58,985 bases of DNA from Nitrospiraceae bacterium (GTDB lineage: Bacteria; Nitrospirota; Nitrospiria; Nitrospirales; Nitrospiraceae): the NCBI GenBank assembly GCA_013140715.1, contig JABFSG010000012.1, forward strand, positions 1 through 58,985, written 5' to 3'. Positions 6,502-58,189 of the stretch are shown piece by piece. The position numbers and the translations under genes are program-made. A model generated the notes under the pieces. That model did no database searches, was not told the DNA's origin, and saw nothing but the letters and a program-made list of their open reading frames with translations. How positions within the stretch are numbered: position 1 is the first letter of the stretch; each line of letters opens with the position of its first letter.

Positions 6502-8100
6502 TTACTCAGGTCGTACAGGTGGCTGAAGCGGGGCGGATGGATCTCCCGTACTCGAAAGAGGAGCTGGAACTCCATTCTGGCGTTCAAGTTTTTCTAAGAT
6601 ATCTTGCTTGAGCTTCGTCGGTTCCTCGATCCGATTTTCCCGTTGAAGTGTCCCCAGTTCTGCTGACTTGCGGGCATTTAACTCCACCACGTCTCCATCA
6701 TCTCTGACTAGGGTTGGAGTCAAGAATACGAGCAGGTTCAGTTTCTCAATTTGTCTGCTTTGGAATCTGAACAGCCAACCCAAGAACGGGATATCGCCCA
6801 AGAGAGGCACCTTTCGCTCGCTGAGAGTGATGTTATCCCGTACGAGCCCACCGACAACGATCGTCTGCCGATCTTTAGCAATGGTGGTTGTCTCCATCGA
6901 CCGTTTGGTTGTCGTAGGTCCGACCGGGATACTGGCCGTCCCGCTCCCGATCGTTTGTGCCACATTCTCGGCAATCGCGGTAATCTCCTGCTTGATTTTC
7001 AAGCGGATCAGGTCATTTTCCAAAACCTGCGGGGTAATTTCCAATGTGACACCGACATCTTTTCGCTCGATCGTGACAAGAGTGCCCCCCGTGATTCCCT
7101 GGGCCTGGCCTGTCGGAAAGGGACGATTTTCGCCCACGACGATCTTCGCCTCTTGGTTATCTGCCGCGAGCACTTGGGGAGTCGACAGAACGTTCGTGTC
7201 CGTGAGGCTCAACAACAGCTGCAAGAAAGCGCGCACGTTCACCGTATTCAGTACCGACGTTGCTCCTCCTGTTGCAGCGCCAGTAATGGCCTGCGCAATG
7301 GTTGCCAAGTTTTCCGGCGCGCTATTGAGTCCAGCAGCGGCCTGCACTGACCCGCTCCTGCCGGCGCCTATGACTTGAATAGGGTCACTCCCGATCTGTC
7401 TAAGCCGATCGACTTGTACCTCCAAGATGACGGCTTCGACAAAGACCTGATTCCGACGGGTATCCAAGTCACGAATAACGGACTGCAGTTTGAGGTAAGC
7501 GCTCTTTGTCGAACTGATGATGATCGAGTTCGTAGCCTTGTCCGCAAAGACCTGGACTGGGGCTTCGAACTCGCTCAAGGGCCTAAAGAGTGGTCTTGTG
7601 CCGGGTGCCGTCTGAGCGACCGTCTGAGATCGGGCGACAAGGTTAGTCAGGATGGCTGCAAGGTCTGTCGCATTGGCATGCTTCAGCTTGTAGACGAAGG
7701 CCCCTCGCTCCGGAGGAAGATCACCCATTGCCACGATTTGATGGACGTTTCCCTTCATGACGACAGCCAGCCGGCTGACTTCAAGCGCAGCCACAAACAT
7801 GTTGTAGGCTTGGTCCTGCGTAACCTTGGTAGGAGAATAGACGCTGATTTTCCCCCCGGCCTTCTTAACTACATCGTCCAAGACAAAATTCTTACCGGTC
7901 AACTCACTGATGAAGCGAACAAAAACAGCGAGTTCAACATCGTTGAAATCGAGGGACACCCGTCCGGAAGAATTCCCCCCGGACTCAGCCCACGAGACCA
8001 AGGGAAACAGAAATCCACTCAGCACTACCAGCAGACAGACGAGAGCAGTCCGCCTAACCCAACGTAATTGCCCGAAAGGGGGGAAATCCATAATTCTCAT
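6502..8100 (-). CDS. Secretin (GspD/PilQ family), short form
   Basis: Outer-membrane secretin forming a gated channel for type II secretion or type IV pili. After a signal peptide (about residues 18-38) come an N0-like domain (FNDVELAVFVRFISELTGKN, 51-70), one N-type ring domain (about 134-215), and the secretin barrel domain (about 217-465) with VGENRPF, ITPQV and the family signature VPLLGDIPFLGWLF near 431-444. At 532 residues it is shorter than typical GspD, with fewer N domains and no obvious pilotin tail. No other gsp or pil genes are adjacent; a PilB/GspE ATPase lies 23 kb away. Divergent from the 1310-aa gene. An alternative ATG lies at 8091. Confidence 0.85.
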   Translation of the reverse strand: MRIMDFPPFGQLRWVRRTALVCLLVVLSGFLFPLVSWAESGGNSSGRVSLDFNDVELAVFVRFISELTGKNFVLDDVVKKAGGKISVYSPTKVTQDQAYNMFVAALEVSRLAVVMKGNVHQIVAMGDLPPERGAFVYKLKHANATDLAAILTNLVARSQTVAQTAPGTRPLFRPLSEFEAPVQVFADKATNSIIISSTKSAYLKLQSVIRDLDTRRNQVFVEAVILEVQVDRLRQIGSDPIQVIGAGRSGSVQAAAGLNSAPENLATIAQAITGAATGGATSVLNTVNVRAFLQLLLSLTDTNVLSTPQVLAADNQEAKIVVGENRPFPTGQAQGITGGTLVTIERKDVGVTLEITPQVLENDLIRLKIKQEITAIAENVAQTIGSGTASIPVGPTTTKRSMETTTIAKDRQTIVVGGLVRDNITLSERKVPLLGDIPFLGWLFRFQSRQIEKLNLLVFLTPTLVRDDGDVVELNARKSAELGTLQRENRIEEPTKLKQDILEKLERQNGVPAPLSSTGDPSAPLQPPVRPE

Positions 8101-8608
8101 ATAAGTTTGAGGAAAGACCGATCATCCCTCGACCACATTGAGCATGAAAAGGGGATGAAAGACGGTACCACAAGGCTCGTTATCGGCACAACCAGACTAG
8201 GAGCCTGTTGCAACCAGCCGATCGGATTTGCCGCTTGCTTACTCGCCATCCGGCGTAAGAATGTCTTCCTTGCCTGCTTCGACTTCATTGGGGTCCGACA
8301 AAGGAACCCAGCCGGACCTGATTAGAAATCTCATCGGTTACTCCCCAAGAAGACTTTCTCAATGGCAATTCTTGAATGGTTTGTTCATTTTTGACAAATC
8401 ACCAGTAGTAGGAAAGGGGAAGGTTTTTCTAACACACTAATAATTAAGGGCATTCAAAAATTCTTTGACAGCCGGCATGGCACTAGGATTGCACTTGCCC
8501 ATCCAGTTTGCCTCCCCTCATGATCGTGAAAAACAGAATAGAGCAAGTCTGGTGAAAGTAGCCAGGGGAACCACCTCGCATATTTTGATGATCTGCTAAG
8601 GTTGTAAC
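8101..8608. other. 508-bp divergent intergenic region
   Basis: This gap separates the secretin (minus) from the 1310-aa gene (plus). I see no convincing gene in it on either strand. It contains the RpoN-type promoter at 8478-8493 and AT-richer stretches around 8380-8460, including an isolated TTGACA at 8391 without a matching -10. Confidence 0.5.
8478..8493 (+). promoter_or_regulatory. Sigma-54 (RpoN) promoter
   Basis: TGGCACTAGGATTGCA matches the -24/-12 consensus TGGCACGNNNNTTGCA except for T in place of the seventh base, with the invariant GG and GC at the correct spacing. Transcription would start near 8505, leaving a leader of about 100 bases before the GTG at 8609. An enhancer-binding activator would be needed; none is encoded in this window. 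Confidence 0.7.
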
Positions 8609-11600
8609 GTGCGGACCGATAAGAAATCCCTTCAAAAAACCGATAAAAAGATCCCATCCCGAACACACAATCGGGGTGTTGTCGGCTATAGCAAGAAAAG
8701 CGCCCTTCTTGAGGAAGCCATTACCCATATGAACACCGGCAAATACGGCCGGTCTTCCACTGCATTAAAGCAGCTGCTCGCACTCGATCCTCAGAACACA
8801 GAAGCACGACGACTCTTTGCCACATTGCATCTACGATTGGGTAGTCTTGTCACGGCTCGGCAAGCATTTGAATCCCTCGCCAAAGAAGCAATCGAGCGAC
8901 AAGACTTCTGGTTAGCCGAATCCTTGTTGCGTGAATATTTAGTCGCCGGACCCCGTTGCATCCCGTTCCTCGAACTCTTGGCCCATGTGCATGAGGTCAA
9001 AGGAGATGCCGTTGCTGCTGTGACTGAATTGGGCAAGGCAATCGACATTCTCCTCGAGGATCCAGACTCTGAAAACCCCAAGAAACCTTCTCAGCTCTAT
9101 ACCAAAGTGAGAGAACTTGCACCGGCCAGCTCTGTAGCCTGTCAGCTTGCTTCTCTCTTCGATATACAAACAGGCGAGCTTCTCGTATCTCGCCCGTTGG
9201 CTCCTGCCGCAGCAGAGTCCCTGGAAGAAGTGCGTATCTCGCAGCCCAAGGGAGAGATCTCCGCTACCGCTGAAGAATCCAACCCCTTTGATGTGATGCC
9301 GTGGGAACAGCCGGATGGGGCGCTTTCACGTCACGAAATTCTGCCACCCCCTTTATCGAACTCCGTCATCGAATCGTTCGATACTCCAGAGGCTGTGGTA
9401 GACCCAGCACTAGTCGGTCTACTCCCACAGGAACTCGACATCCCTACGTCCGAATCAACTGGGCCAATCCAGGATGCCAATCGCTTCGTCCATGAGACGG
9501 CACCATCCAAATTGCCCGAGCCCCCGCTTCCATTGAACGGAGATCGCCATGATCGGACAGGTGATTCGATCGTCGAATTTTCGACCTTTGCGGATGAGCA
9601 GCGCGCCCCTAACTCCTCAGAGGAATATCGAGTGGATGACGGAGGCGGTGAATCCGTTCTTGCCCCACCCACTACCTCTCAACCTGAGCCTGTATCGGAC
9701 CAGTTAGCAAGTCGAGCTCCCACGCCCGATCTGACGGAACCGACGGTGTCGATCTTTGCCGTAGCACCTTCGACAAGCCCGGCGGAGCTTCCAGAGCCTG
9801 AAACTACAACTCTGTCTGCTACTCCTGAACCTGTATCGGACCAACTGGCGACTCGAGCCCCGACGCCCGATCTGACGGAACCGACGGTGCCAATCTTTGC
9901 CGTAGCACCCTCAACAAGCCCGGCGGAGCTTCCAGAGCCTGAAACTACAACTCTGTCTGCTACTCCTGAACCTGTAACCCAGCTGTCGGAATCTAGCGAA
10001 TCGATCTTTTCGACAGAACCGCCACCAAGTCTCGCGGAATTTCCTGAACCAGAAGTTCCACCCTCATCCACCGCCGATGCGTCACCCACGGCCCCACTTT
10101 CATGGAACAACATATTCGACGGCGCATGGAAGTTTGCCGCAGGAACGTTATCGTCGAGTTCGCCTGCCGCATTATCCAAGCCCTATGCGAGCTTACAGGA
10201 TGCGAGGGAATTGGAACCGGTTCAACCAGAATCAGACCTCTCCGCCCCATCCAGTACAATAACTTCTGGCCTGCCAGTTTCATTCAGCGATCCCGACTCC
10301 AAACCCGACTCTTTACCATCGCCTGATCCTTCGATTGTGAGTGGATCGATTGAAAGAGCAAATGCGATCGAAGAGGTCGATCTCCTATCCCCGACACCAG
10401 CCCTTAGTTCGGAAGAGCCCTCGCTGATAGAGGCGCCGTCGGTTTTTGCGAGTGAAGCCCAGAGCTCCATTAATGTGGACCTTCCGGTGCCACCTCTGCC
10501 GGAATCGGTCGAACCAGCTCGAAATTCTGAACCGGTTACCACAGGGCAACGTGAAATACCCATCACACTGCTTAAGGACGCGGAGGCGCCTCCTCTCCCC
10601 GCAATGCAAAGTGATGCGCCATCGGCTTCGCCTAGCTCGATAGATACATCGGCGCAATGGAGCACTGGCGAGGTCGCGGTTCAGCCACATCGCCAGCTCG
10701 AAAAGAAAAGACAATGGGACAAGGAGAAGGGAGACGCTCCAGTCGGTCAGCTGACACCACTACCGGTGATTGAGGAATCTTCTAAATCAGTTGCCGAACT
10801 GTCTCGTACCGGCGGGTGGGAGACCGCTCCCGCAGGTGCAGTCACTCCGGTCGTTGAAATGGTAGCCCCGATCACAGAGAAGCCTGTTCTTGAGGAAGAT
10901 ACGAGACCGGAATGGATTCGTGAGAGTGAATCGATCACCTTTATGGATTCCCCCCTACCCTCTTCCTCCACGTGGCAGGACCCCGGTGCCGAAACCACTC
11001 ATTTGAGGCCAGAACCTGAGTTCTCTGTTGCTGCCTCGGCTGTTGATGTGCTTTTTGACTCAACGGAACATAAACACCAAGTTCACACACAGGATCGTGT
11101 CGCGACGCCAAGATCCCGCCCTCGGCTTGCCACACGAATGGCTCGTATCCGCATCGGCATCTCCTCATTTATCGGGACCTGTTTTTCAACGACACGATCG
11201 ATCGTCCTGCTGTGTGTCGGGTTAGCCCTCTCCTCTGTGGCACTGGTGGCAGTCAGCATCGGGGCAATTGGATTGGCCTGGATCATAATGGAAGCGCCCC
11301 CCTCGTCGGTCTATCACGATCTAACAGTCAGCCCTCCCCAGGCGCTGACCGATTCAAGAAAAAACGGATATTTCTTGCTGCTCGGCTTCGACGCCTCTGC
11401 AGAGCAGAATCCGCTCCAAGTTGGTTACGAGCGTAAGACTGAAGGAAGCGATCCCCAAGCTGCACATAGCTGCATGCTCGGTGATACGGAAAAAGGAACG
11501 ACAATCAATGGAGCCTCCCCCAACGTAGTCCGTGAATGGTTCAGCAGCGCCGACCCAGCGGCGCAGATCGCACTGCAGACCACAGCAGTGCGATCATGGG

Positions 11601-12541
11601 TGACACAAGAATCGCTCGCCCTCAAACGTTACCAACAATGGCTTCCGATGGCGTTTGAAGATGCCGGATATGGACAAATCCTGAGCCCGAACTGCGACCG
11701 CATTTTGCTGGCTCATCGGCTGTACTTGGCAGAAGGGTTTGCGCAGGGTATCAACACCGGCCTCGAGCGGCTGGAAACCGATATGGGATCTTGGCGCGTT
11801 GTGCTGGAACAGTCCAAGACCTTGATGGTAAAGATGCTGGCAACGACGGCAGTCCGGGACAATATTGCGCTCGCATCCGGGCTCTTGATTCGGCAGAGCC
11901 TCGATGGAGATGCAGTCGGTCGTCTCGGCAAGATTGTCCGCCCTCTGGATCCGGTTGAGTTATCTCTCCGTTGGCCGATGCAAAGCCATCTCGCGTGGGG
12001 GACGAAGTCCGTGACGATGGCCTTGAAAAATGACAAGAATGGCGAGCGTCCTCTTCACGTTGCCTTGGCGGCCGCAATGCCCCTTCCTGTACAGCGGCGA
12101 TCCAACGCCTATGCTGACTATTACGAGGCGGCGAGTAAATCTGTGGCGGAAGGACGCTATACCAACTTGCCAAAACTGTCCAGTTTCATTCGGACTCCCG
12201 CTACCAGCACATTGGACTATTTGGCAAATCCGATCGAACACATCCTCGGAATTGAACCCCTCCCATCATGGGATCCCTACGTTGGACGTATCGTGGAGAC
12301 CGATGCACGGCTTCGTCTCGCGAGCCTGCAGATCTGGATCAGACGAGGGGCACAAGAAGAAAATGTGCTCGCGCGCCTCGCAAAAGCAGGGCAGGCCCTC
12401 TACGATCCCTTTACTGGCCTTCCCATGCTGCTCGATCAACAGAAGGGTATGATGTATAGCGTCGGGCCAGACGGCAAGGATCAGGATGGCGATTCCCTGC
12501 GCGATATCGCCGCAACCATCCCCAAGCTCAATCGGTCGTGA
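8609..12541 (+). CDS. 1310-aa TPR protein with one membrane span and an exported C-terminal domain
   Basis: I do not recognise a named family for the whole protein. Residues about 25-185 form TPR-like helical repeats (HMNTGKYGRSSTALKQLLAL). Residues about 195-850 are Pro/Ser/Glu/Thr-rich and probably disordered, with a duplicated 47-residue unit. One membrane span (about 865-893) is followed by roughly 400 residues predicted outside the cytoplasm. The extreme C-terminus carries DPFTGLP and MYSVGPDGKDQDGD, wording also seen near the ends of GspG-type pseudopilins and some secretion-associated proteins. GTG start with AAGG upstream. A RpoN promoter and the divergent secretin suggest an envelope or secretion role; this is inference. 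Confidence 0.8.
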   Translation: MRTDKKSLQKTDKKIPSRTHNRGVVGYSKKSALLEEAITHMNTGKYGRSSTALKQLLALDPQNTEARRLFATLHLRLGSLVTARQAFESLAKEAIERQDFWLAESLLREYLVAGPRCIPFLELLAHVHEVKGDAVAAVTELGKAIDILLEDPDSENPKKPSQLYTKVRELAPASSVACQLASLFDIQTGELLVSRPLAPAAAESLEEVRISQPKGEISATAEESNPFDVMPWEQPDGALSRHEILPPPLSNSVIESFDTPEAVVDPALVGLLPQELDIPTSESTGPIQDANRFVHETAPSKLPEPPLPLNGDRHDRTGDSIVEFSTFADEQRAPNSSEEYRVDDGGGESVLAPPTTSQPEPVSDQLASRAPTPDLTEPTVSIFAVAPSTSPAELPEPETTTLSATPEPVSDQLATRAPTPDLTEPTVPIFAVAPSTSPAELPEPETTTLSATPEPVTQLSESSESIFSTEPPPSLAEFPEPEVPPSSTADASPTAPLSWNNIFDGAWKFAAGTLSSSSPAALSKPYASLQDARELEPVQPESDLSAPSSTITSGLPVSFSDPDSKPDSLPSPDPSIVSGSIERANAIEEVDLLSPTPALSSEEPSLIEAPSVFASEAQSSINVDLPVPPLPESVEPARNSEPVTTGQREIPITLLKDAEAPPLPAMQSDAPSASPSSIDTSAQWSTGEVAVQPHRQLEKKRQWDKEKGDAPVGQLTPLPVIEESSKSVAELSRTGGWETAPAGAVTPVVEMVAPITEKPVLEEDTRPEWIRESESITFMDSPLPSSSTWQDPGAETTHLRPEPEFSVAASAVDVLFDSTEHKHQVHTQDRVATPRSRPRLATRMARIRIGISSFIGTCFSTTRSIVLLCVGLALSSVALVAVSIGAIGLAWIIMEAPPSSVYHDLTVSPPQALTDSRKNGYFLLLGFDASAEQNPLQVGYERKTEGSDPQAAHSCMLGDTEKGTTINGASPNVVREWFSSADPAAQIALQTTAVRSWVTQESLALKRYQQWLPMAFEDAGYGQILSPNCDRILLAHRLYLAEGFAQGINTGLERLETDMGSWRVVLEQSKTLMVKMLATTAVRDNIALASGLLIRQSLDGDAVGRLGKIVRPLDPVELSLRWPMQSHLAWGTKSVTMALKNDKNGERPLHVALAAAMPLPVQRRSNAYADYYEAASKSVAEGRYTNLPKLSSFIRTPATSTLDYLANPIEHILGIEPLPSWDPYVGRIVETDARLRLASLQIWIRRGAQEENVLARLAKAGQALYDPFTGLPMLLDQQKGMMYSVGPDGKDQDGDSLRDIAATIPKLNRS
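9689..9970 (+). repeat. Two tandem 141-bp units inside the 1310-aa gene
   Basis: The unit starting CCTGTATCGGACCA at 9689 recurs at 9830, and a third partial start (CCTGTA) follows at 9971. Each unit is 141 bp, or 47 codons, and encodes PTPDLTEP, IFAVAPSTSPAELPEPE and TTTLSATPEPV. The copies differ at only a few bases, pointing to recent duplication or ongoing copy-number change. The period keeps the frame. Confidence 0.9.
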
Positions 12542-51447: not shown

Positions 51448-51615
51448 TCAGATGCCCATCTCCTCCGACAGCCGGACCTCCGATGCGTCGTCGATTTCCT
51501 CAAGGCAACTGAAGCAGGTAAACGGAAACCGGTCGATGGGGATCGCGCAGACCTCGCCGACGGGCGATTCATCGAGCGCCGGACAGCCGCATTCTTTGTG
51601 AATGAGTGTGAGCAT
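51448..51615 (-). CDS. 55-aa Cys-rich protein (probable zinc ribbon)
   Basis: Read directly from the minus strand: starts MLTLIHKECGCPALDESP, contains FPFTCFSCLEEID, and ends SEEMGI. Cysteines at 9, 11, 23, 34 and 37 plus His 6; C34-x2-C37 looks like half of a zinc ribbon. The ATG lies nine bases after the upstream hydrolase stop, with TGAGG upstream. Last gene of the four-gene cluster. No family recognised. Confidence 0.65.
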   Translation of the reverse strand: MLTLIHKECGCPALDESPVGEVCAIPIDRFPFTCFSCLEEIDDASEVRLSEEMGI

Positions 51616-51624
51616 AATGGGGCC

Positions 51625-52380
51625 TCAGGGTTGTCCTACGACCAATTGATGAAACTGTTCCACGTTCTCAGGACTGCTCAATCGATGGTCGCCTGGAACC
51701 AGATTGAGCTCTACAGGAAAGGCCACATCCTTGGCTAAGAGCTGTTCGACAAACTGCCTGCTGCCGCCCGGAAGGATCACGCTATCTTGCAATCCGTGTA
51801 AGATCGTCGTATGCACCTGTCTGAGACGATCGAAGCTGGCCTTCCAATAGGCCTCGCTCTCCTCGACCCATTTCCACGCGAGAGGCCAGTCCTTGTGAGC
51901 CGGCTCATCGTCCCAGGGCATCCAGCCAGCGCCTTGCCAGGCCTGTCTCCTTTCAGGATCAATCGACTTCGCCCGCAGTCCCATCATGTTGAATGCTGGA
52001 GCGATAAGGACAAGCCGCTCAATCTGCTCGAGCTCCTGCGCCATCAGCCAGGCGATCCACCCTCCAAGTGAATTGCCGACAAGGGTCAGCGGCGGACCGG
52101 TGTCGAGAGTGCGGAGTACCGTTCGCGCATCCGCGATCCAATCTGACAGGGTGTAGTCGGTGAAGTTTCCACCCGATTCTCCAAACCCCCGCACATCATA
52201 ACAACAGAAACCCCAGCCCTTCTCCTCACACCACTGAACCAATGCCTTGCTCTTGTTGCCCCAGCGTTTCGACAGAAAGCCGGTGATAAAGAGGATCTGG
52301 CGATCCTGACCGATCGACCGGTCTCCACGAATCAGCTTGCCGTCTGTGGCTATGAGTTCAAATGAGTGGAGGCTACTCAT
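51625..52380 (-). CDS. Alpha/beta hydrolase
   Basis: 251 residues. FITGFLSKRWGNKSKALVQW, CCYDVRGFGESGG, nucleophile elbow GNSLGGWIAW, HGLQDSVILP (acid region) and PGDHRLSSPE (His). Lip cap between. The start at 52380 overlaps the upstream gene by eight bases. Close in style to YcjY/BEM46-like esterases; substrate unknown. Part of the 51.4-56.4 kb operon. Confidence 0.88.
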   Translation of the reverse strand: MSSLHSFELIATDGKLIRGDRSIGQDRQILFITGFLSKRWGNKSKALVQWCEEKGWGFCCYDVRGFGESGGNFTDYTLSDWIADARTVLRTLDTGPPLTLVGNSLGGWIAWLMAQELEQIERLVLIAPAFNMMGLRAKSIDPERRQAWQGAGWMPWDDEPAHKDWPLAWKWVEESEAYWKASFDRLRQVHTTILHGLQDSVILPGGSRQFVEQLLAKDVAFPVELNLVPGDHRLSSPENVEQFHQLVVGQP

Positions 52381-53095
52381 GTTTGGCAACCGCCTTGGCA
52401 ATAAAGGGTCCCAGCCGCTGCAGAACCGCTCTTGGAATCTCGTGGCCGCCGCGGAAGCTGTGCCATTCAACTGTGAGTCCTCCATGACTAAGCGTGTCTC
52501 GTAACCGTTCCGCTCCAACATAGGGCAGGATCTCGTCCTGTATCCCATGGCTTTGAAAGACCGGTAGCCCTTTGCGTTTTTGGAGCAACGGAGCCCATTC
52601 CTGTGTGGCGAGGAGCGTACCGGAAAGTTGGATCAACCCAGCATAGGGTTCTGTCGTCCTGAGCATCACATCACAAGAAAGCATGGCGCCCTGGGAAAAG
52701 CCCCCGAGGATAGTTTTGTGCGGGGCCGCGTTGAGATGTTGCTCGACCTCCTTGAGGAAGGCCAACATTGTCGTGCGCGCCGGAGCCAGGCCTTTGGGAA
52801 TATCCTGCGAGAGATCGCGGATCCGGCCTGCCGCTTGATCTGCGGCAATGCGCGCCATATCGATTAGCCACCAGGCTCGCGCATCTCTCGGCCCAAAGCT
52901 TAACGAAAGCGGGCCTTCGGGAAAGACAAATCTGATATCGGCCGGCACATTCAACACTTCGGCTAACGACACCAAGTCATGCCCTGGCGCCCCGAAGCCG
53001 TGCAAGAGCACAACGAGAGGGCCGTTGCCCCCACCCTTGCCATCGATACCACCTACGATCCGCGTCCGCAGCCCGCCTATCTGTGTTTCGCGCAT
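52373..53095 (-). CDS. Phospholipase/carboxylesterase-type serine hydrolase
   Basis: 240 residues of the acyl-protein-thioesterase / carboxylesterase group. VVLLHGFGAPGHDLVSLAEVL, RAWWLIDM, nucleophile in GGFSQGAMLS near residue 143, acid HGIQDEILPY near 194, His in FRGGHEIP near 224. The start is ten bases after the big membrane protein gene, with AAAGGA at its end as ribosome-binding site. Confidence 0.9.
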   Translation of the reverse strand: MRETQIGGLRTRIVGGIDGKGGGNGPLVVLLHGFGAPGHDLVSLAEVLNVPADIRFVFPEGPLSLSFGPRDARAWWLIDMARIAADQAAGRIRDLSQDIPKGLAPARTTMLAFLKEVEQHLNAAPHKTILGGFSQGAMLSCDVMLRTTEPYAGLIQLSGTLLATQEWAPLLQKRKGLPVFQSHGIQDEILPYVGAERLRDTLSHGGLTVEWHSFRGGHEIPRAVLQRLGPFIAKAVAKHE

Positions 53096-53105
53096 GAACG
53101 ATCCT

Positions 53106-56100
53106 TTACTTCAAATAGAGATATTGCAGCAGGGCCACGAGCCCATAGAGCGAAGATTCGACGACCGGTTGCTGATAGAAAGGAACGAAGGCGCCCTTCT
53201 GGTTGGCCTCAACCTCGCCGATGATGTACTGGACCTGCTTCGCGCGGACTTCGTGGTCCTTGCCGAGCCCGAGCGCTTGGATCATTTGCTTACTCAGCCC
53301 GGCCAAAACCGACTGCTTCGCGCGGTCGGCTGAGCGATAGAGCAACATCGCCCCGCCCAGCGCCAGAACGACGTTCAAAGCCCAGGCCAGCAGCAGCAAG
53401 AGCGGATAGTTCCAAATATCGAAATAGTCGTTGCGCGCGGCGATCATAATCAGCAGGGCGATGAAGGGGTACCGGATGAGGCGATTGACCGCTTCCGTTC
53501 GCCGGCTGATCAGATCGATGCCGGCCAAGTATTTAAGTTTGTCAAACTCTGCCTGGTGGCTCTGGCTCAATCCATACTCGCGCAAGTATTTCTGTTGCAC
53601 CTGATCGGACCAGCCCCCGCTCGTGCTGTTCACCCAACCGACCCACCGGCGGCACAACATGACCTCATCGAACACCGCCAGATTGAGTAGCACCACAAAG
53701 CTCACGCTAGTCAACGTCATGATCGAATCCACTCGACAGCTCAACCAGCCCCGACAGGGCTGGATCATCTCTTCGTCAAGGACCCAACGGTCCAGAGACG
53801 CCATCATCGCGCCATACAGGAGAAACAGGACCAGCAGGCGCGCCGCCCTCTGTAGCGGAGCTGCGCCGTCGAGATACCAGGACCAGGCTTGATCGACCGT
53901 GGTGGCGGCTCTGGTGGCGACCGGATGATAGATCCGTTGCACATTGGTCCAACACATCTTCAGGGTCCATCGAGAGCGAGGGCTCTGATCGATGTGAAAT
54001 AGAAAATCTTCGGTGAGGCGGTCGCTGTTCTTCCTCAGATCGCGAGCCCCCTTGACCAGGAAGACAAGGCACATAAGCACCACGAGAAACCGGAGCCACT
54101 CGCCTGGCCAAATGCTTACACCGGCAGTCCAGGAGAAAGGTTCACCTTCATCGTGCTGGGCCATAAGGGCTGTGCCGCCGCCCAGAGTCAAAAAGATCGC
54201 AGTCCCGGCGAGTAGCAACAGACCAGCCAATGCGAACAGACCCCAGGACCGAGAAACCCGGAGCCAGACTCGCTCATTCGTCCAGGCAAGCGCCGTCACA
54301 ATGAACAGCCCGATCCCGACCAGCGCCATCACGGTTGCGCTGCTGGGGCCGATACCCTGTTTCAGCTGACCATAACTGTCCGTATGATCGAGATCCACAC
54401 GCAAGGGATGGATCGTTCTCACCCCTTCGACATCCACGACGCTGAGGTCTACAGCGCCCTCTCGCCCCACTTCGAAGATGCGAGGATGTTCAGCCGAATC
54501 GTAGACCCGGTCTTCAGGGGTCAGCGGCACGTGATACCCTGCCTGACAGGGCCCCGCCGACGGCTGCCGCCCCCCCCCTGCTCGACAGGTCACGTGATTC
54601 ACCGCCCGAAGCACGGCAAAGTATGTGGCAGTTTGATAGCTGCTCCGGAACGGCGGAACGTCGCGCTGGAGACTCCCGTCCAACTGCAGGCCGAACGGCG
54701 AGGCGACGACCATGTTCCTGGTCCACTTGTACTCACTGGCGTGAAGATGGCGCGCATCGAGATCGACGGTGAAGAAAACGGCGTAGGGGAAGGCCGGCCG
54801 GAGCGCTTTCAGAATGAGCAAAGCATCGTAGGGATCCCTGCCCAGAATACCGATCGCTTTTGCTCCCTCTCCTTCGTCTTGAATCCTTGTCGTCAAGGCC
54901 CGCACATAATCGAGCTGGCTCGTTCCCTCCGGACGTTCCCGCAACCCACCAGCCAGCAGATCCTTCGCCGTCACACTGGCCTTGGAACTCTCTCCACGTC
55001 CGGCTTTCACCGCATCGTCGCCTGGCACTTCGCCATCGAGACCGCTCAGATAGCTATATCGGAAGACGTTCAAGGTCAGGGACTCATAGTCAGCCGGGCG
55101 CTGAATCTGCAAATCGACCGCGCGCGGAACAGTCGGACACCAGGATTTGATCGTCGCCGGCACCTGAATCTGCTTGAGCTCTAGCTCCGTGAACGTTGCC
55201 ACTTTCGCGCAGGCTGCCGCTCGAAACTCGATGGGCAATGCTCGGCCATAGAAGGAATCCCATTCCCCGATCAGGATCACCGCATCCCAGCCAAGCCGTA
55301 CCTGACGTCGTTCCAATTCCTCGATCAGCGTGGTGAAAAGCCGATCGTCGGTTCCGACCTCGTAGACGAGCCTCACATTTGCAGCGGCCAGCCGATGGGA
55401 AAACTCCTCCTCGCAGGCTTCATAAGCCTGGCAGGCAGATCCCTTCCCCCCTTCCTTCTTCAGCCCATAGGCCATGAGCCCCTTCATCGCGCTGGCCCAA
55501 GGCGAATAGAGCTCGATGGTTCCATCTGTGTTCGGCCAGGCCCCGATTCCTTCATGGGGCTCGGTATACAAGTCTCCGGCTTCATCCAGGAGTTGACGCA
55601 GGGCTGAGGAGCTGCGGGGCCCCACAATCTTGAACGTGACAGACTGTTGCAACCTCGGATTCAGCCGGACCAGCCTGTGCCGGTCATCGGTAAAGAGACA
55701 TTCGCTCTTCTCTGTCGACTCTTGGCACACCAGGGCTTGCGACAACGAGGTCAAGGTGGCCAGGAATCCTCGGCTGAGTGCGTCATCGGAGACCCAAACC
55801 ACGAGGGTATTTTGAGCCCGATCCTGGCCCTCGCCACAGACCTTGGTCTTCCGGAGCCGATACCATTCGTAGGGTAAGAAACCAGTGCCCTGAGTATTGC
55901 CCTCGATGAACGAGAGATGCCCCTCATCTTCCGGAACATAGCAGGCGACACCCAACGCAGTGCCGACCGCATAACGATCCCGGATGCGGGACTCAGCACT
56001 CTCCGCATAGGGATCACCGCTCATGGCCATCAAGAGTACGGTGATCTGCTCATCCTTCTTGATCCGGTCGGCAATCGCATGCCTCAGTGGTCTCAGACGC

Positions 56101-56381
56101 TGAACGAACAACGAATCGGCCGACTGGCCGGACGAAGGCTTGGACGACCCGCTTGCTGCCGGCGGCGCCGTTCCCATCCCCCGCTGCACCGCTGCCAGAG
56201 GATCTTCCCACAGCCTCGCGCGAACCGATTGTTCACTGGTGGTTTGTTTCACCTCCAACCCGGTCCCTACCGGACGAGAACTGCGCAGAGGCTCCTTCAC
56301 TAACAGCACGCCGGTGAGCGCGACTGCGAGGGTGACCACACCCACCAGAGCGATCTTCGACTCTCCACTTCCTTTTGCCAT
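53106..56381 (-). CDS. 1091-aa membrane protein, unknown, with large exported N-terminal region
   Basis: One N-terminal anchor (IALVGVVTLAVALTGVLLV), then about 660 residues outside the cytoplasm, then about seven membrane helices from residue 715 on (MALVGIGLFIVTALAW; LFALAGLLLLAGTAIFLTLG; WLRFLVVLMCLVFLV; further ones to ALNVVLALGGAMLLY). The exported part has alternating strand-helix text (ITVLLMAMSGDPYAESAESR; AVILIGEWDSFYG; AIGILGRDPYDALLILKALR) like two or more periplasmic-binding folds. No catalytic motif seen. Sensor or channel-like role is inference. First gene of a tight operon. Confidence 0.75.
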   Translation of the reverse strand: MAKGSGESKIALVGVVTLAVALTGVLLVKEPLRSSRPVGTGLEVKQTTSEQSVRARLWEDPLAAVQRGMGTAPPAASGSSKPSSGQSADSLFVQRLRPLRHAIADRIKKDEQITVLLMAMSGDPYAESAESRIRDRYAVGTALGVACYVPEDEGHLSFIEGNTQGTGFLPYEWYRLRKTKVCGEGQDRAQNTLVVWVSDDALSRGFLATLTSLSQALVCQESTEKSECLFTDDRHRLVRLNPRLQQSVTFKIVGPRSSSALRQLLDEAGDLYTEPHEGIGAWPNTDGTIELYSPWASAMKGLMAYGLKKEGGKGSACQAYEACEEEFSHRLAAANVRLVYEVGTDDRLFTTLIEELERRQVRLGWDAVILIGEWDSFYGRALPIEFRAAACAKVATFTELELKQIQVPATIKSWCPTVPRAVDLQIQRPADYESLTLNVFRYSYLSGLDGEVPGDDAVKAGRGESSKASVTAKDLLAGGLRERPEGTSQLDYVRALTTRIQDEGEGAKAIGILGRDPYDALLILKALRPAFPYAVFFTVDLDARHLHASEYKWTRNMVVASPFGLQLDGSLQRDVPPFRSSYQTATYFAVLRAVNHVTCRAGGGRQPSAGPCQAGYHVPLTPEDRVYDSAEHPRIFEVGREGAVDLSVVDVEGVRTIHPLRVDLDHTDSYGQLKQGIGPSSATVMALVGIGLFIVTALAWTNERVWLRVSRSWGLFALAGLLLLAGTAIFLTLGGGTALMAQHDEGEPFSWTAGVSIWPGEWLRFLVVLMCLVFLVKGARDLRKNSDRLTEDFLFHIDQSPRSRWTLKMCWTNVQRIYHPVATRAATTVDQAWSWYLDGAAPLQRAARLLVLFLLYGAMMASLDRWVLDEEMIQPCRGWLSCRVDSIMTLTSVSFVVLLNLAVFDEVMLCRRWVGWVNSTSGGWSDQVQQKYLREYGLSQSHQAEFDKLKYLAGIDLISRRTEAVNRLIRYPFIALLIMIAARNDYFDIWNYPLLLLLAWALNVVLALGGAMLLYRSADRAKQSVLAGLSKQMIQALGLGKDHEVRAKQVQYIIGEVEANQKGAFVPFYQQPVVESSLYGLVALLQYLYLK

Positions 56382-56545: not shown

Positions 56546-56710
56546 CGGGCGAGGGCCTTCCGATTTTCCTCACTTCGCCCTAGGGGGAGCAGCCAGACTG
56601 CCCTGAGCCACTCTACAACAGACAGAGGAGGAGACTGCAAGGTGGGATACAAAAAAACGGCTCACGATACGGTAGATGTGTGGGTCGTCAAAAAGCTCAA
56701 TTGTCCGGGG

Positions 56711-58189
56711 CTACGACGAGCAACTGACCGATAAATGCTTGCCCCAGTTGGGAGGCGGATATGCGTAGGCGTCCATACCTGGCTGGTCGCTGTAGGGATT
56801 TTGTAGCAGAGTGAGCAACCGATCGATCTCGGAGAAGTCCTTTTGTTGAGCCTTCTCGATGGCTGTCTGCGCCAGATAGTTGCGAAGCACATACTTGGGA
56901 TTGACGCGGTTCATGCGTACCAGACGATCGTTGTCTCGGCTCCCTTCGGCCTGCAACCGGCACCTATACCGGCGAGCCCACTTGTCGAAAGCTTCACGAT
57001 CCAGGAAAAAGTCGCGAAGCGGCTCGTTCAGCGATGCTGACCCAGTCTGAAACAAGCCCAACGATCGAAAGAAAATCGTGTAATCGACATGGTGCAGATG
57101 CATGAGAACCAAGAGGTCTTGAATCAAGGATACATCCTCCTCCTTCGCCTCGATCAGTCCACACTTGGCCCTCATCAATTCCATGTACCGTCCTTCGCAG
57201 AGGGGGGTGTAACGGTCAAGCGCTGCCTTCAGCTCTTCCTTTTCGGCCAACGGGAGTAACGCCTGCGCGAGACAACTGAGGTTCCAGAGACCGATATAGG
57301 GCTGTTGATTGAAGGCATAGCGGCCGTTGTGGTCGGAATGGTTGCAGATGAAGCCGGGATCGTAGTCGTCCATGAACCCGAATGGACCGTAGTCGAGCGT
57401 GATGCCATGGATCGACATGTTATCGGTATTCATCACCCCGTGCGCCCAGCCGACAGCCTGCCATTGTGCGATCAGCTTGGCGGTACGTTCGACGACCTCG
57501 GAAAAGAACCGCGCGTACTTGTCCGGGGCATCCACTAAATGGGCAAAGTTGTTCGCAATGACATAGTCGGCAAGGATTGTGAGTTGCTCATGCTGTTTAC
57601 GGTAATAAAAGATCTCAAAGCTGCCGAACCGCACATGTGATGGCGCCATCCGCACAAGCATCGCGCCGGTTTCAATCTGCTCGCGATAGACCTTATTGTC
57701 GCTGCCGACGAGACAGAGCGCCCGCGTCGTCGGAATCCCCAGGCCATGCATCGCTTCGCTACAGAGATATTCCCTGATGGTTGAGCGCAGCACAGCGCGG
57801 CCATCTCCCTCGCGCGAGAACGGCGTCAACCCTGCTCCTTTCAAATGCAGATCCCACGTCTCACCTCGTTCGTTCCGCACTGTTCCAAGAAGGATGGCTC
57901 GCCCGTCCCCTAGTTGAGGGACATAGACACCGAATTGGTGCCCGGAATAGAGCATGGCCAGAGGCTCCATTCCCGGCACAAGAAGGCTCCCCCCAAAGAC
58001 CCCGGCAAACTCCGGGCGTTTTGCTTGCTCCGGATCGAGGTCGATCAGTTTAGCCGCAGCGGCATTGAAACTGACCAGATAGGGAGGCTCTGCAAAGGGA
58101 GTGGGATTCAACTTCGAGTAACAAGCCTCGGGCAGGCGGGCGTAGCTGTTGTCGAATGATAATGTTTCCAGTGAACGCATAGGTCCCAT
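56711..58189 (-). CDS. selO: Protein adenylyltransferase SelO
   Basis: Pseudokinase that AMPylates protein targets on Ser/Thr/Tyr and protects against oxidative stress. 492 residues. SGHQFGVYVPQLGDGRAILLG near 80, LKGAGLTPFSREGDGRAVLRS near 115, GVMNTDNMSIHGITLDYGPFGFMD near 250, RVNPKYVLRNYLAQ, and the conserved redox C-terminus SCSS. Alternative ATG at 58180. The C-terminal cysteine is expected to pair with another cysteine. Confidence 0.95.
   Translation of the reverse strand: MGPMRSLETLSFDNSYARLPEACYSKLNPTPFAEPPYLVSFNAAAAKLIDLDPEQAKRPEFAGVFGGSLLVPGMEPLAMLYSGHQFGVYVPQLGDGRAILLGTVRNERGETWDLHLKGAGLTPFSREGDGRAVLRSTIREYLCSEAMHGLGIPTTRALCLVGSDNKVYREQIETGAMLVRMAPSHVRFGSFEIFYYRKQHEQLTILADYVIANNFAHLVDAPDKYARFFSEVVERTAKLIAQWQAVGWAHGVMNTDNMSIHGITLDYGPFGFMDDYDPGFICNHSDHNGRYAFNQQPYIGLWNLSCLAQALLPLAEKEELKAALDRYTPLCEGRYMELMRAKCGLIEAKEEDVSLIQDLLVLMHLHHVDYTIFFRSLGLFQTGSASLNEPLRDFFLDREAFDKWARRYRCRLQAEGSRDNDRLVRMNRVNPKYVLRNYLAQTAIEKAQQKDFSEIDRLLTLLQNPYSDQPGMDAYAYPPPNWGKHLSVSCSS

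Follow-up and report, generated by a model that had tools for sequence, protein, structure and literature searches.

A membrane protein of Nitrospira predicted to join a periplasmic Venus-flytrap domain to an insect-chemoreceptor-like membrane domain

The DNA analysed in this work is a stretch of 58,985 nucleotides (contig JABFSG010000012.1, assembly GCA_013140715.1; referred to as the window) from a Nitrospira metagenome-assembled genome, whose close relatives, among them Nitrospira sp. CG24E, show 96% protein identity. It carries an array of four genes for a membrane protein of 1091 amino acids (aa), which we call GMP, a carboxylesterase, an alpha/beta hydrolase and a Cys-containing protein of 55 aa, which we call Cys55. 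Structure prediction suggests, with about even odds, that GMP is an inner-membrane receptor consisting of a periplasmic flytrap and a domain similar to the seven-transmembrane-domain ion channels (7TMICs), with a channel-type role. To the more specific reading, that GMP belongs to a paralogous family of ligand-gated ion channels in Nitrospirales, each made up of a Venus-flytrap sensor and an insect-chemoreceptor-type pore, we assign a probability of roughly 0.4. The four-gene array is not an obligate module.

Results

Searches of Pfam, NCBIfam, PADLOC and the sequences in the PDB gave nothing usable for GMP. The earlier note on this DNA, which was made from the sequence alone, had found no recognisable enzyme motif in the protein; this was correct at the level of sequence, but overlooked that the C-terminal half has a predicted fold like that of insect chemoreceptors. 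The AlphaFold2 model of full-length GMP, built with 20 orthologues, was of medium confidence (predicted local distance difference score, pLDDT, 69; predicted template modelling score, pTM, 0.58). In Foldseek this model matched two kinds of structure, on the one hand type-1 binding proteins and the flytraps of glutamate receptors and class C receptors, on the other hand insect gustatory and odorant receptors (GRs and ORs).

The first kind of match belongs to residues ~104-650, which are predicted to have the type-1 periplasmic-binding fold, an assignment made from the fold. VIA-align superposed this region on LivJ/LivK-type proteins with Z 14.5-18.1 (~300 residues at 3.3-4.2 A in most rows), Foldseek matched it to the type-1 periplasmic-binding fold with probability 1.00, and the model has the two-lobe alpha/beta architecture of a flytrap. 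The resemblance of the exported region to periplasmic-binding proteins, suspected from the sequence by the earlier note, was thus supported by the predicted structure. The domain contains low-confidence inserts, e.g. at residues 450-487.

Eight membrane helices are predicted for the C-terminal part, namely a connecting helix (TM-A) and seven more; the earlier note had estimated about seven. The seven are S1 (713-732), S2 (758-793), S3 (842-866), S4 (879-919), S5 (940-982), S6 (994-1038) and a split S7 (S7a, 1043-1059; S7b, 1072-1090). The AlphaFold2 model of residues 676-1091, calculated from a 71-sequence alignment, was better than the full-length model (pLDDT 79.4, pTM 0.77). With this model the first-ranked Foldseek match was a 7TMIC, and match probabilities reached 0.99; insect GR, OR or Orco channels made up 19 of the top 21 entries in VIA-align (Z 9.5-12.3). 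The alignments comprised ~240-274 residues at 4.9-6.5 A and extended over model residues ~64-416, from just before S2 to the C-terminus. The Z values of 12.3 for BmGr9 and 10.9 for Orco must be read beside low Foldseek TM-scores, a helical background near 10 and an S1 that was mostly left unaligned. Both GMP models, although made from different alignments, pointed to insect GR/OR channels. A comparison of the C-terminal model with a library of viral structures yielded no coherent family (probability 0.35 or less).

7TMICs are marked by a characteristic packing of seven helices, for which a screen took a Dali Z above 10 as threshold, by a TM4-6 that projects into the cytosol and by a split TM7 (PMC9998090). 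The latter two features are seen in the prediction: S4, S5 and S6 are 41, 43 and 45 residues long (pLDDT 79), and a cytosolic segment (1043-1059) is separated by a 12-residue link from a membrane segment (1072-1090). The published helix boundaries of BmGr9, including S7a at 395-409 and S7b at 424-444 (PMC11100771), allow the lengths to be compared. For GMP and BmGr9, respectively, they are 41 and 52 residues in S4, 43 and 53 in S5, 45 and 45 in S6, 4 and 5 in the S6-S7a turn, 17 and 15 in S7a, 12 and 14 in the S7a-S7b link, and 19 and 21 in S7b. Lysine-plus-arginine counts were 1.9, 6.0 and 1.8 in the predicted cytosolic loops and 2.6 in S7a, whereas those of the periplasmic loops were 0.5, 1.0 and 1.2. 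This positive charge in the predicted cytosolic loops fits a seven-helix unit that has its N-terminus inside the cell and its C-terminus outside. The most conserved segments are the periplasmic loops S5-S6, S3-S4 and S1-S2, helix S5, the S7a-S7b link and S7b; it is at such places that a sensor in the periplasm would be linked to a pore.

Several observations weigh against the channel reading. Profile searches of PDB sequences with GMP gave no match, the Peripla_BP_6 profile (PF13458) did not match at the locus, and hhalign of GMP with Nitrospira Peripla_BP_6 proteins returned a probability of 0.1 %. The Pfam profile 7tm_7 produced scattered sub-threshold matches over 61 genomes, none of them at GMP loci. 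The GR motif TYhhhhhQF, whose conservation outside insects is partial or lacking (PMC9998090), is absent from the aligned GMP C-termini. We considered a C-terminal [QE][YF] pair as the equivalent of the QF gate pair of GRs but abandoned the idea, since in the structural alignment (416 to 441) the pair lies about two helical turns off. For the C-terminal domain the Foldseek E-values were weak (best 0.035) and the TM-scores low (0.3-0.4), S1 lay outside most VIA alignments, and two designed helical proteins scored Z 10.2-10.4 against the same model. In the calibration of VIA, helical models may reach Z 13-14 by chance. Moreover, a fold shared with insect channels does not prove channel activity.

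These weak scores and the missing sequence match are what one would expect if the insect-receptor likeness were a chance resemblance between helical bundles, and GMP a sensor of periplasmic-binding fold set on an unrelated membrane domain. We consider this unlikely, yet it is the strongest of the alternatives. Because designed helical proteins reach Z 10.4, the VIA score alone is not decisive, and the coherence of the matched family is the stronger argument: 19 of the top 21 entries come from one family and align up to the C-terminus in native order. The agreement in helix lengths and in the split of S7, and that between two models from different alignments, also speak against coincidence.

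The positions of the genes and predicted domains are collected in Table 1. The four minus-strand open reading frames (ORFs), with their gaps and overlap, were found in the ORF list as the earlier note had described them: GMP is separated from the esterase gene by 10 bp, the esterase gene overlaps the hydrolase gene by 8 bp, and Cys55 follows after 9 bp. For the hydrolase we took the internal ATG at 52380 as start; the longest ORF would begin at 52548. In comparison with a close relative the dN/dS pairs were 0.018/0.119 (GMP), 0.030/0.126 (esterase), 0.042/0.197 (hydrolase) and 0.016/0.183 (Cys55). Since dN is well below dS in each, the four ORFs are real genes. In the window GMP lies 329 bp downstream of the gene for SelO, and Cys55 is followed by genes for a CREG/PPOX-type protein, EttA and an RmlD-like protein (Pfam/NCBIfam). 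The region contains no Rfam RNA, and PADLOC profiles of anti-phage defence did not match at the locus. Elsewhere in the window (8609-12541, plus strand) there is a 1310-aa ORF whose Pfam match is limited to TPR at the N-terminus.

Table 1. Positions in the window of the genes of the GMP locus and of the predicted parts of GMP
Feature	Position	Strand	Basis and remarks
GMP (1091 aa)	53106..56381	-	ORF; predicted N-terminal membrane helix, periplasmic type-1 binding-protein-like domain and C-terminal 7TMIC-like membrane domain; orthologues conserved
N-terminal membrane helix of GMP, residues 9-28, in to out	56298..56357	-	AlphaFold2 helix; hydropathy peak at residue 19
Predicted periplasmic domain of GMP, type-1 periplasmic-binding (LivJ/GluR amino-terminal domain) fold, residues ~104-650	54432..56072	-	VIA-align, Foldseek
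Connecting helix TM-A of GMP, residues 681-700, out to in	54282..54341	-	AlphaFold2, hydropathy
7TMIC-like domain of GMP, residues 713-1091	53109..54245	-	AlphaFold2, Foldseek, VIA-align, positive-inside and conservation pattern
Carboxylesterase, 240 aa, Abhydrolase_2 (PF02230)	52373..53095	-	ORF, Pfam; triad S134/D187/H218
Alpha/beta hydrolase, Hydrolase_4 (PF12146), ABHD10-like	51625..52380	-	ORF, Pfam; triad S104/D199/H232
Cys55, 55 aa, probable metal-binding knuckle	51448..51615	-	ORF; four invariant Cys: C9, C23, C34, C37
SelO (protein adenylyltransferase), upstream member of conserved block	56711..58189	-	Pfam/NCBIfam, synteny
Weak sigma-70-like promoter match in SelO-GMP gap	56664..56691	-	Sole match in scanned region; 3.1 expected by chance

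The array of four genes is kept in more than 60 orthologous loci, and the order SelO-GMP-esterase-hydrolase-Cys55-(PPOX)-EttA recurs across Nitrospira loci even where GMP identity is just 35-45%. The spacing between GMP and the esterase gene is usually 8-12 bp (median 10 bp; within -30 to 60 in 49 of 62 orthologous loci). The esterase-hydrolase (median -4 bp) and hydrolase-Cys55 (median 9 bp) junctions are tight in 52/59 and 39/47 orthologous loci, respectively. All 53 loci with enough downstream DNA contain the esterase gene and 51 of them the hydrolase gene. In a tree, the GMPs occupying the syntenic slot form a single clade with support 100/97 (52 syntenic rows, 19 elsewhere). Joint transcription of GMP with the esterase, hydrolase and Cys55 genes is plausible within the orthologous locus. 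Between SelO and GMP no orthologue has fewer than 63 bp (median 220), therefore GMP may have its own promoter there; the sigma-70-like match in this gap is not above chance.

Judged by their sequences, the esterase and the hydrolase look like ordinary cytosolic enzymes with intact triads. The Pfam scores are 97 bits for Abhydrolase_2 (cut-off 23) and 66 bits for Hydrolase_4 (cut-off 27), and both Ser-Asp-His triads are at least 97% conserved. The nearest solved relatives of the esterase are the bacterial carboxylesterases 5dwd and 4f21, LYPLAL1 and the acyl-protein thioesterases APT1/2. The nearest PDB entry to the hydrolase is 6ny9, a mycophenolic acid acyl-glucuronide esterase (E 3e-18), which we take to be ABHD10. 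Cys55 had no match in Pfam, NCBIfam or the PDB; it is a probable small metal-binding protein, its four cysteines being at least 97% conserved. In the neighbourhoods L199 and L193 the Cys55 gene is present two or three times. In L071 (12699-16805) Cys55 reads in frame into a 1368-aa ORF for a hybrid histidine kinase with PAS, GAF, HisKA and receiver domains, which is either a fusion or an assembly error.

The block SelO-esterase-hydrolase-Cys55 also occurs without GMP, namely in loci L138, L139, L142 and L143, where SelO takes the upstream place. In L140 and L141 both GMP and the hydrolase gene are missing from the block. In the loci without GMP, SelO directly adjoins or overlaps the esterase gene; in L139 (7133-7145) the overlap is 13 bp, which hints at an older link between SelO and the thioesterase. 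The genomes of L142, L143 and L144 have a GMP-family gene located elsewhere, and in L144 a glucose/sorbosone dehydrogenase gene (7676-9577) stands between SelO and the esterase gene, near the usual slot of GMP. In a sister family (L151-L157) the esterase and hydrolase genes are separate from each other and from the GMP gene. Among 101 relatives, esterase matches were found in 87 and GMP in 44. The distant GMP homologues that were compared (n=19) adjoin unrelated genes, coding for TPR proteins, an ODP-type metallo-beta-lactamase, an Exo_endo_phos protein or ClpB; a hydrolase homologue was present at a single paralogue locus (L120), two genes upstream. A gene for a TPR protein, a possible partner, lies directly downstream of Nitrospira GMP paralogues in L118, L129, L132 and L133. 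There is no gene for a transporter ATPase or permease near the GMP locus.

On the evidence of the genomes searched, the GMP family is centred on Nitrospirales. Beyond this order a member was found in one further Nitrospirota genome. The sole relative on plasmids was a 152-aa ORF (L178, 5908-6366) on plasmid pMSC49b of Methylosinus sp. C49 (Alphaproteobacteria); it matches the N-terminal ~140 residues of the family, including the RLWQDPF motif, and is apparently truncated. Viral contigs contained no GMP relatives.

Discussion

If GMP is a ligand-gated channel, it could work as follows. The N-terminal helix would anchor the protein in the inner membrane, the periplasmic Venus-flytrap domain would bind a small molecule, and TM-A would bring the chain back to the cytosol. 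Closure of the flytrap on its ligand would move the conserved periplasmic loops S1-S2, S3-S4 and S5-S6, and this movement would shift the C-terminal pore helix S7b within an oligomer, by analogy a tetramer, so that an ion path opens. The gene layout, its conservation and the predicted folds and topology come directly from the analysis, while the binding of a ligand, the oligomerisation, the gating and the conduction of GMP are inferred. As GMP contains no cytosolic signalling domain, ion flux or an output based on contacts is favoured. It must be noted that the channel reading and its three alternatives overlap in part, so the confidences given to them need not add up to one.

A protein of the same flytrap-plus-seven-helix architecture could also be a receptor without channel function, which signals to partner proteins through its cytosolic anchor helices or moves a lipid or solute. 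The fold similarity does not fix the function, the predicted cytosolic parts (the S2-S3 loop of ~48 aa, S7a, and the ends of S4-S6) could bind partners, and the TPR genes near several GMP paralogues would fit such a role. However, there is neither a dedicated signalling domain nor a partner gene that is constant across the GMP paralogues, and S7b with the S7a-S7b link is among the most conserved segments, as a pore helix would be. We regard this possibility as slightly less probable than a chance resemblance of the membrane domain.

The earlier note had proposed a sensor or a lipid/ester uptake module coupled to the downstream cytosolic esterases. Its sensor-type part agrees with the structural predictions, and the tight spacing and nearly constant presence of both hydrolase genes in the orthologous loci are in favour of a coupling, but the dedicated four-gene module did not hold up. 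Esterase, hydrolase and Cys55 occur together without GMP, the esterase is found in about twice as many relatives as GMP, no transporter ATPase or permease gene is nearby, and the hydrolases resemble enzymes of the acyl-protein thioesterase type. The hydrolase link is unsupported outside the orthologous locus because GMP paralogues, L120 excepted, have no hydrolase neighbours; the earlier note had itself named such homologues as evidence that would speak against it. We therefore think that a coupled module is improbable. The esterase, hydrolase and Cys55 genes belong to a SelO-linked block; they are likely to share a transcript with GMP but not to make up one machine with it. A tightly packed and deeply conserved operon need not equal one functional module. 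We rejected uptake of the ABC or TRAP type, for which partner genes are missing and the membrane fold does not match.

Himmel, Moi and Benton reportedly described, in 2023, 7TMIC members in bacteria and archaea. Prokaryotic members of the channel superfamily of insect taste and smell receptors have already been reported; no role for them, and no fusion of a flytrap to a 7TMIC, was found in the literature searched. Their paper is cited in a review that also names the transfer of 7TMICs from eukaryotes to prokaryotes (PMC11526382). If the channel reading of GMP is true, a bacterial 7TMIC joined to a binding-protein domain would supply a natural ligand-sensing module with a testable gating mechanism, a prokaryotic point of comparison for how insect-type channels arose, and a candidate chemical sensor in Nitrospira, which are globally important nitrifiers.

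It is useful to compare the products of this locus with known systems. The esterase and the hydrolase are, by sequence, ordinary members of the group that includes APT1/2, LYPLAL1 and ABHD10, with intact triads; what sets them apart from hydrolases of the acyl-protein thioesterase type is their neighbourhood with SelO and Cys55, a feature of Nitrospiraceae. Residues ~104-650 of GMP share their predicted fold with type-1 periplasmic-binding proteins (LivJ/LivK, AmiC; Peripla_BP_6), but GMP differs from these in being tethered to the membrane, in its low-confidence inserts, and in having neither an ABC transporter partner nearby nor a profile match. A flytrap of the same fold on a membrane domain is known from class C G-protein-coupled receptors and, as the amino-terminal domain, from ionotropic glutamate receptors (Foldseek matches 7m3j, 9nor and 3h6h), whereas GMP is bacterial and its membrane domain matches 7TMICs, not the G-protein-coupled receptors or the glutamate-receptor pore. 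With the 7TMIC superfamily (insect GR/OR/Orco; PF08395/7tm_6) GMP shares the predicted order of helices, the long cytosolic S4-S6, the split S7a/S7b and the C-terminus outside the cell, and its top structural matches are to insect members. In contrast to the insect proteins it lacks TYhhhhhQF and a match at sequence level, it is bacterial, and its 7TMIC-like domain stands behind a periplasmic domain of ~600 residues and an extra helix.

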